DNA of 64,000 nucleotides, from NCBI GenBank assembly GCA_029688995.1, contig JARULA010000002.1:124001-188000 (forward strand), written 5' to 3'. Below the pieces are notes generated by a model. That model did not search any database, was not told where the DNA came from, and worked only from the letters and a program-made list of their open reading frames with translations. Positions 38,481-54,478 of the stretch are shown here, piece by piece (position 1 is the first letter of the stretch; every line of letters starts with the position of its first letter). The DNA is from Marinilabiliaceae bacterium ANBcel2. GTDB taxonomy: Bacteria; Bacteroidota; Bacteroidia; Bacteroidales; Marinilabiliaceae. The position numbers were made by a program, and so were the translations under genes.

Positions 38481-40124
38481 CTACTTAAATATAGACTCAA
38501 ACTGAAAATTATCACTACAAAAAAGACCTTTGTCACTTAGTTTTAGTGAAGGTATAACTAATAATGATAAAAAAGAGAGTGTCATAAAAGGAGCAGAAAG
38601 TTGTGATCCGGATTTTTTGGCTAAAGAGTCTATCTCGGTATAGAGCAGAGCCACTTCATTAACAGACTCTAAACTCATCAATCCGGCTACAGGCAGAGGC
38701 AATATTTTTAAACCTTCACTACACTTAATTCCTATACCACCTTTATTATCAACGATATTATTTATAAGCTCAACTATATATTGATCATCTGTTCCTGCAA
38801 CTACTATATTATGACTATCATGAGCAACTGTCCCTCCTATAGCACCATCTTTTAACCCTATATTCTTAACAAATCCTATCGAAGGTGTGCTGTGACTATA
38901 TCGATTATAAACCACTAATTTGATAATATCCTGCTTGAGATCACCATTTAAATAGTTATTGCGATATTCTCTAATATCCCAATTAAAAATATCAGTTATT
39001 AACTCTCCATCTTTAACATTGATAACCTGAGCATAAGTAGCATAATCTGGAACCTTAAGTAAAAAATCTTCATGAGTAACTTTCTTAGCACAAAAATTAT
39101 TTATTGCTACTTGTGGTGATAACGAAAATTTATAACCCTCTTCACTATTATATGCTTCACTTCCATCTATAAAAGTTGATAAAACATTTAAATCCTTTAA
39201 ACTGTCAACAATAATAAAATCTGCAAGATCTCCTTCCTTTAATAATCCTATAGGTAATTTATAATGTTTAATCGGATTTATTATTGCTGCTTTCAAAAGT
39301 TTAAAAATATCAACTCCATAGCTAAGACCCAGACGAATAATTCGATCAATATGTCCGTTAGAAAGAATTTCGTCGGGATGACTATCATCAGTACAGAGCA
39401 TAACATCATCGGGAAATTGAGAAATCAATGGGTAAAGATTTTTAAAGTTTTTTGCTGCACTCCCATCCCTTATCAATATTTTCATTCCTTTCATGATCTT
39501 CTCTTTTGCTTCAATATATGTACTACACTCATGATCTGTAGATATCCCACAAGAGATATAGTAATCGAGATCTTTGCCAGACAATCCGGGAGCATGTCCA
39601 TCTATAACTTTATTAAGTTTCTTTGCACTAGCAATCTTTTTATCTATTTCAGGATCCCCATTAATTACTCCGGGATAATTCATAACCTCAGATAAAAACC
39701 ATATTTGGTCATTAGAGAGCAGCTCTAAAACATCTTGCGAGTTGATGCAAGCGCCGGAGGTTTCAAAGTTGGTAGCAGGAACAGATGAAGGAGCACCATT
39801 AAAAAACTTTAAAGGAACTGTTAAACCATTATTAATCATATAATAGACGCCGGATTTACCACAAACATTGGCAATCTCATGTGGATCACAAATAACTGCT
39901 ATTGTTCCATGTGGAACAGTAGCGGCTGCAAAATGTGAAGGTAATAACATAGAGCTTTCTATATGAATATGACTATCAACAAAACCAGGTAGAATATAAC
40001 GATCAGGAACTTCTCGAGAATTAACCCTGGCAACTTTGACAATTAATCCATCCCTAATGGTTAACGAACCTGGAAATATACTTTCGTTCTCAATATCGAC
40101 AATATGCCCTAAAATTTTTTCCAT
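38481..40124 (-). CDS. ade: Adenine deaminase
   Basis: This 547-residue amidohydrolase converts adenine to hypoxanthine. The N-terminus has the metal-binding strand PGFVDSHIHIESSM; IDGHAPGLSGKDLDYYISCGISTDHECST and LCTDDSHPDEILSNGHIDRIIRLG supply further ligands; GGTVAHDSHNIVVAG marks the C-terminal Ade domain. This set separates it from dihydroorotases and hydantoinases. A long gene-free stretch lies upstream. No purine riboswitch was recognised there. Confidence 0.94.
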   Translation of the reverse strand: MEKILGHIVDIENESIFPGSLTIRDGLIVKVARVNSREVPDRYILPGFVDSHIHIESSMLLPSHFAAATVPHGTIAVICDPHEIANVCGKSGVYYMINNGLTVPLKFFNGAPSSVPATNFETSGACINSQDVLELLSNDQIWFLSEVMNYPGVINGDPEIDKKIASAKKLNKVIDGHAPGLSGKDLDYYISCGISTDHECSTYIEAKEKIMKGMKILIRDGSAAKNFKNLYPLISQFPDDVMLCTDDSHPDEILSNGHIDRIIRLGLSYGVDIFKLLKAAIINPIKHYKLPIGLLKEGDLADFIIVDSLKDLNVLSTFIDGSEAYNSEEGYKFSLSPQVAINNFCAKKVTHEDFLLKVPDYATYAQVINVKDGELITDIFNWDIREYRNNYLNGDLKQDIIKLVVYNRYSHSTPSIGFVKNIGLKDGAIGGTVAHDSHNIVVAGTDDQYIVELINNIVDNKGGIGIKCSEGLKILPLPVAGLMSLESVNEVALLYTEIDSLAKKSGSQLSAPFMTLSFLSLLVIPSLKLSDKGLFCSDNFQFESIFK

Positions 40125-40302
40125 TAGAATATATTTTAATTAAATAACCAATAAAACTTTAATAGCAACAATAAGTTAAATGAAAAAATTGCCTATTCAA
40201 AACTAATAGCTTTTGTTAAGCTCCATTTATAATGGAGTCAAAAAATCAAATCTATATCAAAAAGTTAATCAATAATAATAAAAAAATTCCTATATAGTGA
40301 AT

Positions 40303-40417
40303 TAGACAATCATATAAAAGACTATAAATTATACACTAAAAATAGACAATCAATTATTTATAATCTTTTTATCAAAAAACCCTCTAGCAGATGTCATTTG
40401 TTAAAAATAGACAATCA
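40303..40417. repeat. Three direct copies of TAGACAATCA
   Basis: Copies start at 40303, 40343 and 40408. The second and third share a longer core, TAAAAATAGACAATCAAT. Spacing is uneven (40 and 65 bp), so they are not a CRISPR array. They could be protein-binding sites upstream of ade. A related ATAGACAAT occurs at 53,358 in the origin-like region. Confidence 0.5.
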
Positions 40418-41544
40418 ATAAATGCCAATACTATAACGATTTAAATGCTTACTCAAAGCTGAACAATTAAATTTATATAAAACTATCAGATTATAAATAT
40501 CAAAGAAGAAGATTTAAGAAGAAGACAAAACTGAGTTATCCGGTATTAAAACCTTACTCCTTATAGTGCCATATTCAAATAGACTATAGCTTTTCAATAA
40601 ATAAATAAATCTAAATGAATTTTTAGAAAAATAAATAGCTTTATCAAGTACAGCTAAGGATACAAAGCTGGTTATATACGCCAGACAAATTTATGTAGCA
40701 AGTTTTCGTTGTAATCTGGATTAAAGCTATTCTGCTATAATCTAGGAAAATCAATTTAAAAATATTTTGCTATAAATATGGATCTACTGAAGAGTTCTGT
40801 TAGAATAATGGGCAATATTTAATACTCACAAGCACCTCTTGATTTTTTTACTAGGGACTCATTCATGTTAGATGCTGCATGCTGACCTTTCTGGTTGTGA
40901 CACAAAAAGAAGACCTTAGATTTATACTAAGATGGGGAAATGTAAACTTCATCCCGGCCTAAAGAAACATTAGCTAACATAGCTAGATAGGAGAAAGACA
41001 AATTAACAGACACCCTTAATTCGCCCATAACAACTATAATTGATCGGTCTTTAAAGTTTAATAACCAAATCGATAAAATTCTTACCTATATACATTTTAG
41101 TTATTTCTTCAAAAAAAAATTTAACGTACCGTAGAAAATTCGAATTCAATTTGAATTATTTGAGCAATAATCTTTGGATAATTCAAGAAAGCTAAAAAAA
41201 GATTAACCATTCTCTATTCCCCTATTTTTATAGCGATAAAATAGTCTTTATTAAAAATTATGAGAATTATTTATCTGTGATAGAGGTGAAAATGTTCCAA
41301 TAATAGATATTTATTAATAAAAAAATTTAATAATAGCTTAAATTAGATAATAAGCTTATCTGTTTTTAAATTTTAAAATTGCAACTAATATAATAATAAA
41401 AAAATAGTGCCCACTTTTAAAAATAAAGAATCTAAAACAGAAGTACCAGAAAATAAAATTAAGCAAAATTCGACAAATCTGTAACAAACTATTTAAAAGA
41501 GTGAAAATGGATATTGCCTATATAAAATATATTCAAAAACATTC

Positions 41545-41560
41545 GGTTCCACGTGGAACA
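41545..41560. promoter_or_regulatory. parS: parS-like ParB-binding site (variant)
   Basis: GGTTCCACGTGGAACA contains the 14-bp perfect palindrome GTTCCACGTGGAAC. It is the bacterial parS palindrome with a symmetrical T-to-C change in each half, a form known from pseudomonad chromosomes. It abuts the mnmG stop codon at 41561. A canonical parS is 12.9 kb away at 54,463. parS sites mark the origin-proximal part of chromosomes. Confidence 0.75.
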
Positions 41561-51905: not shown

Positions 51906-52901
51906 CTACTTCTTTTTTATTTGATTAGATACAGATAACATTCTTTCAATAGGTATTAAAGCTCTTTTTCTCAATTTTTCCTCAATTTCAACCTTAGGGT
52001 ATTCATATTTTAAAGTTAAATAGATCTTCTTAAGAGTATTAAGCTTCATAAATTCACAATCACTACATCCACAAGTAGAATCAATAGGAGGTGCAGGAAT
52101 AAAAGTTTTATCTTTTGATTTTTTAATCATTTGATGCAAAATTCCTGATTCGGTAGCTACAATAAACTTTTTACAATCACTATGAGAAGTATAATTTAAA
52201 AGTGCGGCTGTACTACCAATAAAATCAGCCATTAAAAGAAGTGGTTTTTTACATTCTGGATGTGCAATTAATAAAGCATCGGGATGCTCTTTTTTTAAGG
52301 CCACTATTCTTTCAATAGAAAATTGCTCATGTACATGACATGCACCGTCCCATAGCATCATTTCTCTGCCACTAATACTTTCAAGGTAATTACCTAAATT
52401 ACGATCGGGTCCAAATATAATAGATTTCTCTTTAGGAATACTATTAATAACATCAACTGCATTAGTACTTGTAACTACAATATCAGATAGAGCTTTAACT
52501 GCAGCAGTTGTATTAACATAAGTTACAACAGTATGATCGGAATATTTATTAACAAACTTTTCAAACTCATCGGCCGGACAACTATCTGCCAGAGAACATC
52601 CGGCATTAATATCGGGTACAAGAACAGTTTTATCAGGCGATAGAATTTTAGCTGTTTCTCCCATAAAATAGACTCCCGATAACAATATAATATCGGCATC
52701 ATTTGAAGCAGCTTTTTGAGCTAAAGCTAAGCTATCACCAACAAAATCAGCAATATCCTGTATTTCATCAATTTGATAATAGTGCGCCATTATAATAGCA
52801 TTCTTCTCTCTCTTTAACTTATTAATTTCAACTTTAAGATCAAGATTTTTAGAAATCTCCTCATTAACATACCCCACTTTTTCCCAACTGTTATTATACA
52901 T
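51906..52901 (-). CDS. nadA: Quinolinate synthase
   Basis: This 331-residue [4Fe-4S] enzyme condenses iminoaspartate with dihydroxyacetone phosphate to quinolinate in NAD synthesis. It has IIMAHYYQIDEIQDIADFVGDSLALA and three likely cluster ligands: Cys102 (NAGCSLAD), Cys188 (DGACHVHEQF) and one of the C-terminal cysteines, probably Cys282 (CGCSDCEFM). nadB and nadC are not nearby. It is the last leftward gene before the origin-like gap. Confidence 0.95.
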   Translation of the reverse strand: MYNNSWEKVGYVNEEISKNLDLKVEINKLKREKNAIIMAHYYQIDEIQDIADFVGDSLALAQKAASNDADIILLSGVYFMGETAKILSPDKTVLVPDINAGCSLADSCPADEFEKFVNKYSDHTVVTYVNTTAAVKALSDIVVTSTNAVDVINSIPKEKSIIFGPDRNLGNYLESISGREMMLWDGACHVHEQFSIERIVALKKEHPDALLIAHPECKKPLLLMADFIGSTAALLNYTSHSDCKKFIVATESGILHQMIKKSKDKTFIPAPPIDSTCGCSDCEFMKLNTLKKIYLTLKYEYPKVEIEEKLRKRALIPIERMLSVSNQIKKK

Positions 52902-52993
52902 ATAAATTAGAATTTAAATAAATTAATGGTAATAATAATATCATGTTGATAATGTTAATACATTAATTGTATAGCTATTGTTTTTTATAATTT

Positions 52994-53032
52994 ATAGTTT
53001 TAATAGTGAGTTATCAACACTATTAAAACTAT
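52994..53032. repeat. 15-bp perfect inverted repeat enclosing a DnaA-like box
   Basis: ATAGTTTTAATAGTG (52994-53008) is the exact reverse complement of CACTATTAAAACTAT (53018-53032), with a 9-nt centre. The near-match DnaA box TTATCAACA (53011-53019) fills the centre and enters the right arm. It lies between divergent genes, so it is not a usual terminator. Confidence 0.75.
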
Positions 53033-53064
53033 CTATCTATCTCTATAGTAGTAAGTAATATACT

Positions 53065-53073
53065 TTATCCACA
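53065..53073 (+). promoter_or_regulatory. DnaA box (perfect)
   Basis: TTATCCACA matches the high-affinity DnaA box consensus exactly. It lies 33 bp to the right of the 15-bp inverted repeat in the origin-like region. Confidence 0.7.
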
Positions 53074-53289
53074 ACTGTTTAATAATGGTCAAAGTTAAAA
53101 AATATATTCACTATTTAGTTTATAACTTAAGGTTATCAATGTTTAAAACGTAATAATAAATTTAATGATTTTTATTTTTCTCTTTGATACATGATTCTCT
53201 TATATTTTTTATTGAAATACTCAAGAGAAAATTATTAAAAGAAATTATGTAGTTTTCTTTAATTATAAACAAGTAATTAACAGGTTTGG

Positions 53290-53303
53290 TTGATATATAT
53301 CAA
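53290..53303. repeat. 14-bp perfect palindrome upstream of the rpiB -7 element
   Basis: TTGATATATATCAA is fully self-complementary. It ends 14 bp before TATCTTTG at 53318 and could be an operator for rpiB or an origin-region protein site. Confidence 0.5.
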
Positions 53304-53317
53304 TAGTATAAAAATAT

Positions 53318-53325
53318 TATCTTTG
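53318..53325 (+). promoter_or_regulatory. Promoter -7 element for rpiB
   Basis: TATCTTTG is a perfect TAnnTTTG match. The nearest upstream TTG (53290-53292) is 25 bp away, slightly long. It would give an rpiB leader of roughly 125 nt, which contains an 8-bp hairpin (AAATATTG/CAATATTT at 53348-53369). Confidence 0.45.
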
Positions 53326-53456
53326 CTTTTTCGATTAAAATTTTTACAAATATTGAATAGACAATATTTTAATATATAAGATTGTAGCTTATTTTTTATG
53401 GTTCTATATAGTCCGGGATAGGTTATACAATTTACATTATTTAAATTTTATAAAAA

Positions 53457-53900
53457 ATGACTCAAAAAACAGTTGCTATTGGGTGTGATCATGCCGGATA
53501 TGAATTAAAATTAATAATAATTAAATTTTTGAATGATAATGGTTATAAAGTGATAGATTTTGGGGCAAACTCATCTGATAGTGTTGATTATCCCGATTAT
53601 GCTCATCCTTTAGCAATTTCTATTGAGAATGGTGATGCTGATCTTGGTATTACTATTTGCGGTAGCGGAAATGGTATAAGTATGACTGTTAATAAACATC
53701 AGGGAATTAGATCTGCTTTATGCTGGATGCCTGAAATATCCCGATTAGCCAGAGCACATAATGATGCTAATGTTTGTTCTTTACCTGCTCGTTTTATTAA
53801 TTATAATGAAGCTATTTTAATAGTTAAAAATTTTTTAAATACTAAATTTGATGGCGGACGTCATATATCACGAATTAATAAGATTCCTATAAATTGCTAA
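53457..53900 (+). CDS. rpiB: Ribose 5-phosphate isomerase B
   Basis: This 147-residue enzyme interconverts ribose 5-phosphate and ribulose 5-phosphate. It has VAIGCDHAGYELK, the DFG...SVDYPDYAH segment, and the active-site ICGSGNGISMTVNKHQGIRSALCW. Cys67-region and His residues match the RpiB family. It is the first rightward gene after the origin-like gap; its stop is 3 bp from the stop of the convergent VanZ-like gene. Confidence 0.95.
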   Translation: MTQKTVAIGCDHAGYELKLIIIKFLNDNGYKVIDFGANSSDSVDYPDYAHPLAISIENGDADLGITICGSGNGISMTVNKHQGIRSALCWMPEISRLARAHNDANVCSLPARFINYNEAILIVKNFLNTKFDGGRHISRINKIPINC

Positions 53901-54462: not shown

Positions 54463-54478
54463 TGTTTCACGTGAAACA
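54463..54478. promoter_or_regulatory. parS: parS centromere site (canonical)
   Basis: TGTTTCACGTGAAACA is an exact 16-bp match to the consensus bacterial parS palindrome bound by ParB. It lies 22 bp before the hemW ATG and about 1.4 kb right of the perfect DnaA box. parA and parB are not in the window. Confidence 0.92.

Follow-up and report, generated by a model that had tools for sequence, protein, structure and literature searches.

A predicted chromosomal replication origin between nadA and rpiB, away from dnaA, in a Marinilabiliaceae bacterium

It is already known that the chromosomal origins of Bacteroidetes commonly lie far from dnaA, as the available portion of one account states (PMC4755523). 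In the basal unwinding system, according to the excerpts available of three further papers (PMC8287927, PMC6669920, PMC10721633), a pair of DnaA boxes guides DnaA onto trinucleotide repeats, the DnaA-trios. In the titles and abstract openings searched, a scope that takes in neither the DoriC tables nor most papers behind subscription, no Bacteroidales origin is described as lying next to nadA or rpiB. What is gained here is the place of the predicted origin, its link with nadA and the variant sites that it carries.

The window analyzed here is a 64-kb stretch of the 565-kb contig C12 of Marinilabiliaceae bacterium ANBcel2, whose draft assembly comprises 2,982,560 bases in 35 contigs. Judging from its sequence, the gene-free gap between nadA and rpiB (52902..53456) is very probably a DnaA-dependent chromosomal replication origin. 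We read it so because a flip in strand composition, a cluster of DnaA boxes, extreme AT content, an adjoining parS site and a block conserved in order all come together there; the earlier note had inferred an oriC at this place, and that inference is now supported by the skew minimum, the box density, the synteny of parS, a skew that persists when gene strand is controlled for, and profile homology within the Bacteroidales.

The gap is 555 bp long and its flanking genes are divergent: nadA on the minus strand to the left (51906..52901; Pfam PF02445, E 1.7e-117) and rpiB on the plus strand to the right (53457..53900; Pfam PF02502, E 3.8e-55). As had been claimed, it is free of genes (no ORF of at least 100 aa lies at 52902-53456), and neither Rfam families at gathering score nor tRNA genes were found in the window. 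The genes to its right, described before as rightward, run that way only up to 56.9 kb, barring a 140-aa minus-strand ORF, and beyond that point they are leftward again. The gap is indeed AT-rich: at 18% GC it is the lowest-GC stretch of 555 bp in the 1,245,293 bases compared (all of C12 plus 680 kb of contig C1), a composition that would suit the AT-rich unwinding DNA of an oriC. The dnaA gene is on C1 and not beside the gap; adjacency to dnaA is a common trait of oriC, not a defining one in Bacteroidetes.

The change of the plus strand from C/A-rich to G/T-rich across the gap, first noticed by eye, is real, and it is of the kind expected where leading and lagging strands switch. Cumulative G+T minus A+C over the whole of C12 has its minimum at window position 52943, the likelihood change point falls at 52950 (with 52400-53600 within 10 log units), and T-A alone places it at 52750. 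G-C alone disagrees and counts against the origin reading, its best break lying at 80.65 kb (80650), 27 kb off the gap; we set it aside as a locator and read this break as a probable effect of gene orientation, because leftward genes lie to the right of the gap. At third codon positions, the keto bias of genes on the two strands is -0.032 and -0.253 to the left of the gap and +0.298 and +0.088 to the right, and non-coding DNA goes from -0.087 to +0.120. Since only some of the ORFs on C12 run with the presumed fork (71/128 on the left; 132 of 305, counting those of at least 150 aa, on the right), the switch is not produced by gene orientation; the right arm, by the same count, has no leading-strand gene bias. 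Contig C1, which carries dnaA, falls monotonically in 20-kb steps across the 680 kb taken and has no minimum of its own; therefore the origin is not beside dnaA. A skew minimum elsewhere, which the earlier note had named as evidence against an oriC, thus appeared in G+T minus A+C neither on C12 nor in these 680 kb of C1, together 1,245,293 of the 2,982,560 bases, a limited share that counts as a point against the reading.

Within the gap, the perfect DnaA box announced at 53065 is TTATCCACA on the plus strand (53065..53073), aligned with TTATTCACA of relatives, and the two reported one-mismatch boxes are both TTATCAACA, one at 52944..52952 on the minus strand, where it is the proximal member of a tandem pair, and one at 53011..53019 on the plus strand, aligned with a conserved TTATNAACA of relatives. 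There is also a site at 53133, TTATCAATG, where a weaker box had been proposed, but it is no evidence by itself since it lies three mismatches from TTATCCACA. Farther right, the box-like TAATTAACA (53274..53282, plus) lines up with the conserved TTATNAACA that relatives carry farthest to the right, and CAAAGTTAAAAAATAT (53090..53105, plus) forms a conserved block in the alignments. The three boxes with at most one mismatch compare with 0.14 expected, a count reached in 0/200 composition-matched shuffles; no other spot in the 1,245,293 bases has three such boxes inside 200 bp, and the gap ranks 1 of 190 intergenic stretches of at least 150 bp for box count, a cluster proper to an oriC and a density unlike that of ordinary intergenic DNA.

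Several other features of the gap were considered and not retained. A single perfect box was rejected as evidence, there being 36 genome-wide, fewer than the 45 of a reversed control pattern. The 15-bp inverted repeat is present and perfect (arms 52994-53008 and 53018-53032), with the box at 53011 mostly in its loop; a repeat as long arises in 1/300 shuffles and C12 contains 33 of them, and it was dismissed as a core part because it is absent from the relatives' alignment. So is the trio-like TAGTAGTAA (53046-53054), likewise rejected, which stands at a distance of 10 bp from the perfect box. With a box matrix learned from relatives, the gap comes out among the highest ranks when the cut-off is loose, but it loses that place when the cut-off is strict: 4 sites in the gap reach score 9, and 153 of 24884 windows have at least that number.

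The minus-strand box at 52944 is abutted by the box-like 9-mer GTATTAACA (52953..52961, minus), which has the same orientation and differs from TTATCCACA by 3 mismatches; the tandem is kept in relatives. Along the minus strand the order is GTATTAACA + TTATCAACA (52961 down to 52944), two bases, the trinucleotide repeat ATATTATTATTACCAT (52926..52941) and then DNA of only A and T, save one G, up to nadA (52902..52925), a candidate unwinding stretch. Relatives have repeats such as TATTATCATCATCAT at the place of ours, and their counterpart of tandem plus repeat reads, for example, TTTTAAACAATATCAACAGGGTATTATC. The tandem pattern occurs in its strict form in 13 of 26 gaps and in its loose form in 19; shuffled gaps yield it 0.002 and 0.010 times each, respectively. 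No 3'-GAT-5' DnaA-trios follow the boxes, the box strand reading TAT/CAT and fitting only the loose 3'-NAN-5'; since the repeat differs from the 3'-GAT-5' consensus, we do not file the gap as a member of the basal unwinding system. In one relative (G027), a tandem pair is followed by TGACTACTATT, the complement of which, 3'-GATGATAA-5', is close to the classical DnaA-trio.

We envisage that DnaA would bind the TTATCAACA/TTATCCACA sites, that the abutting minus-strand boxes (52944-52961) would direct a DnaA filament leftward onto the repeat at 52926-52941, and that the AT-rich stretch beside nadA would melt; helicase loading could then follow, with two forks departing in opposite directions, while ParB at the parS site at 54463 (perhaps at 41545 and 39903 too) would separate the new origins.

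Of the nearby parS sites previously claimed, the exact 16-mer stands: the palindrome TGTTTCACGTGAAACA (54463..54478, plus), about 1 kb from the gap, is the sole exact copy in the whole genome. The other two, GGTTCCACGTGGAACA (41545..41560, plus) and TGTTCCATGTGGAACA (39903..39918, plus), are degenerate, each with 3 mismatches to TGTTTCACGTGAAACA and 1 to TGTTNCACGTGNAACA; together with one site on C1 they are the three one-mismatch matches to TGTTNCACGTGNAACA found elsewhere. A ParB gene lies on C12, the same contig as parS, and both the palindrome and the protein of a ParABS system are thus present. The two parS-like sites enclose 1.4 kb (40125-41560) of 25% GC, with no ORF of 100 aa and no Rfam match. 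Among the 18 relatives with a nadA-rpiB gap, 2 carry no exact parS and all the remaining 16 have parS within 20 kb of rpiB (30/32 sites), often lying some 2.4 kb off on the side of rpiB and some 12 kb off on that of nadA. A Marinilabiliaceae metagenome bin (L098:12074-13227) packs nine exact copies of TGTTNCACGTGNAACA into about 1.2 kb, at a spacing mostly near 100 bp, as compared with 0-3 in each of the 35 genomes scanned.

Divergent nadA-rpiB gaps are found in 18 other genomes and at named Marinilabiliaceae and other Bacteroidales loci. A profile built from the gaps of 23 relatives, with our own left out, finds our gap at E 1.6e-21, the next best match in 1.245 Mb being at 3.8. When this profile was run on 47 further loci with a threshold of E 0.001, it matched just upstream of nadA in 16/17 Bacteroidales loci without an adjacent rpiB (some of them mutually close relatives) and in none of 5 Chlorobium nadA loci, 18 other stretches of the relative G007 or 7 loci without nadA. 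In a separate set of 12 loci it matched 7, including three genomes new to the analysis (G026, G040, and G028); G034 gave a weak match (E 0.034) and four gave none, among them G036, cut by a contig end. The neighbor other than nadA varies (Dus, SpoU methylase, an SDR gene, VanZ): rpiB has been swapped out or lost in some relatives, and nadA stands beside the element in most of the Bacteroidales loci seen. At one locus (L192), the gene order (radical SAM, parS, VanZ, gap, nadA) is that of our window minus rpiB.

The strand switch recurs as well. On the 4.1-Mb contig of G007, stretches are negative in 10/11 cases to the left of the gap and positive in 9/9 to the right, and a local skew minimum at 2108273 lies 0.2 kb from the start of the gap (about 2108496). 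This assembly is nearly complete and shows no full DnaA domain by PF00308, its best matches being short (E 2e-6). In G006, 7/8 flanking stretches agree with the switch and in G002, weakly, 6/6. In 20-kb loci that contain the gap (10 from the family, one from the order), the minimum is at most 1.5 kb from the gap in 11/11 and at most 150 bp in 8/11, a placement that divergent genes alone would favor. Two observations count against the origin reading: the element also lies upstream of nadA at loci where the local 10-kb skew does not switch, the sign agreeing in only 10/15 loci without an adjacent rpiB and in 5/8 with one; and at two loci with both nadA and parS (L192 and L193), no minimum falls at nadA in the 20 kb of each.

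The boxes of the relatives are for the most part of another form. In unseeded counts over 26 gaps (a set that takes in our own and some near duplicates), TTATCAACA is the top 9-mer, at 16 against 0.49 expected; relatives mostly have TTAT[C/T]AACA sites, and canonical boxes are sparse, a point against the origin reading, 11 of the 26 gaps having none at up to 1 mismatch. A matrix from the gaps of 24 relatives, seeded with TTATYAACA, has A at position 6 in 86%; motif counts in the loci used for learning it were discarded as circular. The DnaA proteins were scanned in 26 loci, within the order only; 3 had no pattern match, and the 23 proteins read carry the signature DHA in 21 cases and DHS in two, so that 21/23 have Ala where E. 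coli has T435. In the available text of PMC7561715, T435 of E. coli is listed among the residues that contact the box, and we hypothesize that Ala at this position goes with the changed box. Tentatively, it is possible that many Bacteroidales keep an ancestral origin of about 400 bp tethered to nadA, the sites of which moved from TTATCCACA to TTATYAACA along with the change in DnaA, and which opens at a non-classical trinucleotide repeat.

Could the block instead serve to regulate nadA (and rpiB), with TTATYAACA as an operator and the skew switch merely that of a divergent gene pair? The profile does follow nadA where rpiB is not adjacent, the local skew of the relatives is confounded by divergent genes, and TAnnTTTG, the Bacteroidota-type promoter consensus, is present in 24/26 gaps, including ours as TATCTTTG (53318..53325, plus), a possible promoter element for rpiB. 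Our own switch, however, is seen in genes of both strands and in non-coding DNA over 565 kb, and parS sites cluster near the gap. Moreover, G005, a member of the same family, has nadA, yet a model limited to the leftmost 246 positions of the element finds no match in its genome, which also has no exact parS and no sign switch, the bias being negative on both sides of nadA (4/4 stretches). In G027, by contrast, no nadA was found, and an array of TTATCAACA-like sites lies upstream of rpiB (G027:C18; L195:6740-7220), with a profile match (E 0.42) below significance. Regulation of nadA is thus a quite unlikely account of the block.

It is more improbable still that the block is a DnaA-titration or regulatory locus with the true origin elsewhere. 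Loci like datA or DARS are clusters of DnaA boxes, and dnaA is on another contig, both of which agree with such a role; a skew minimum and a parS site, which would be unexpected at such a locus, nevertheless both occur at the gap. That the switch stems from an assembly error or from an inversion not long ago, boxes having arisen by chance in AT-rich DNA, is scarcely credible: although a draft in 35 contigs leaves room for such errors, the composition-matched shuffles never yielded three boxes, the same junction exists in 18 other genomes, and G007 and G006 show the switch again, as does, weakly, G002.

The reading of the gap as an origin locates, in a draft genome, the probable start of replication, and in Bacteroidales, where dnaA is a misleading guide, it offers a landmark that can be used. 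Three questions also arise from the conserved block: whether the lineage's DnaA prefers TTATYAACA, whether the repeat is opened in a trio-like manner, and why the origin stays by nadA while the other neighbor changes. We consider it a good, not exotic, example of a bacterial origin away from dnaA. Other Bacteroidetes origins, among them the oriC predicted on chromosome I of Prevotella intermedia, as given in the accessible part of their description (PMC4755523), likewise combine a skew transition, several DnaA boxes, and a distant dnaA; for P. intermedia the E. coli box served for the prediction, whereas the relatives studied here favor TTATYAACA. A palindromic parS beside the skew minimum is a trait shared with the ParABS systems of gut bacteria, as far as the available part of that source goes (PMC10197239), but here a single site is exact, and the two others, 11-13 kb off on the opposite side, are degenerate. 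The basal unwinding system of Bacillus subtilis, in the portions of the papers at hand (PMC8287927, PMC6669920, PMC10721633), consists of a DnaA-box pair, a spacer and DnaA-trios, and its layout resembles that of our gap, where a candidate pair in tandem points toward trinucleotide repeats and AT-rich DNA; in our gap, however, the distal box is poor and the repeat, read on the strand opposite the boxes, is 3'-RTA-5' rather than 3'-GAT-5'.
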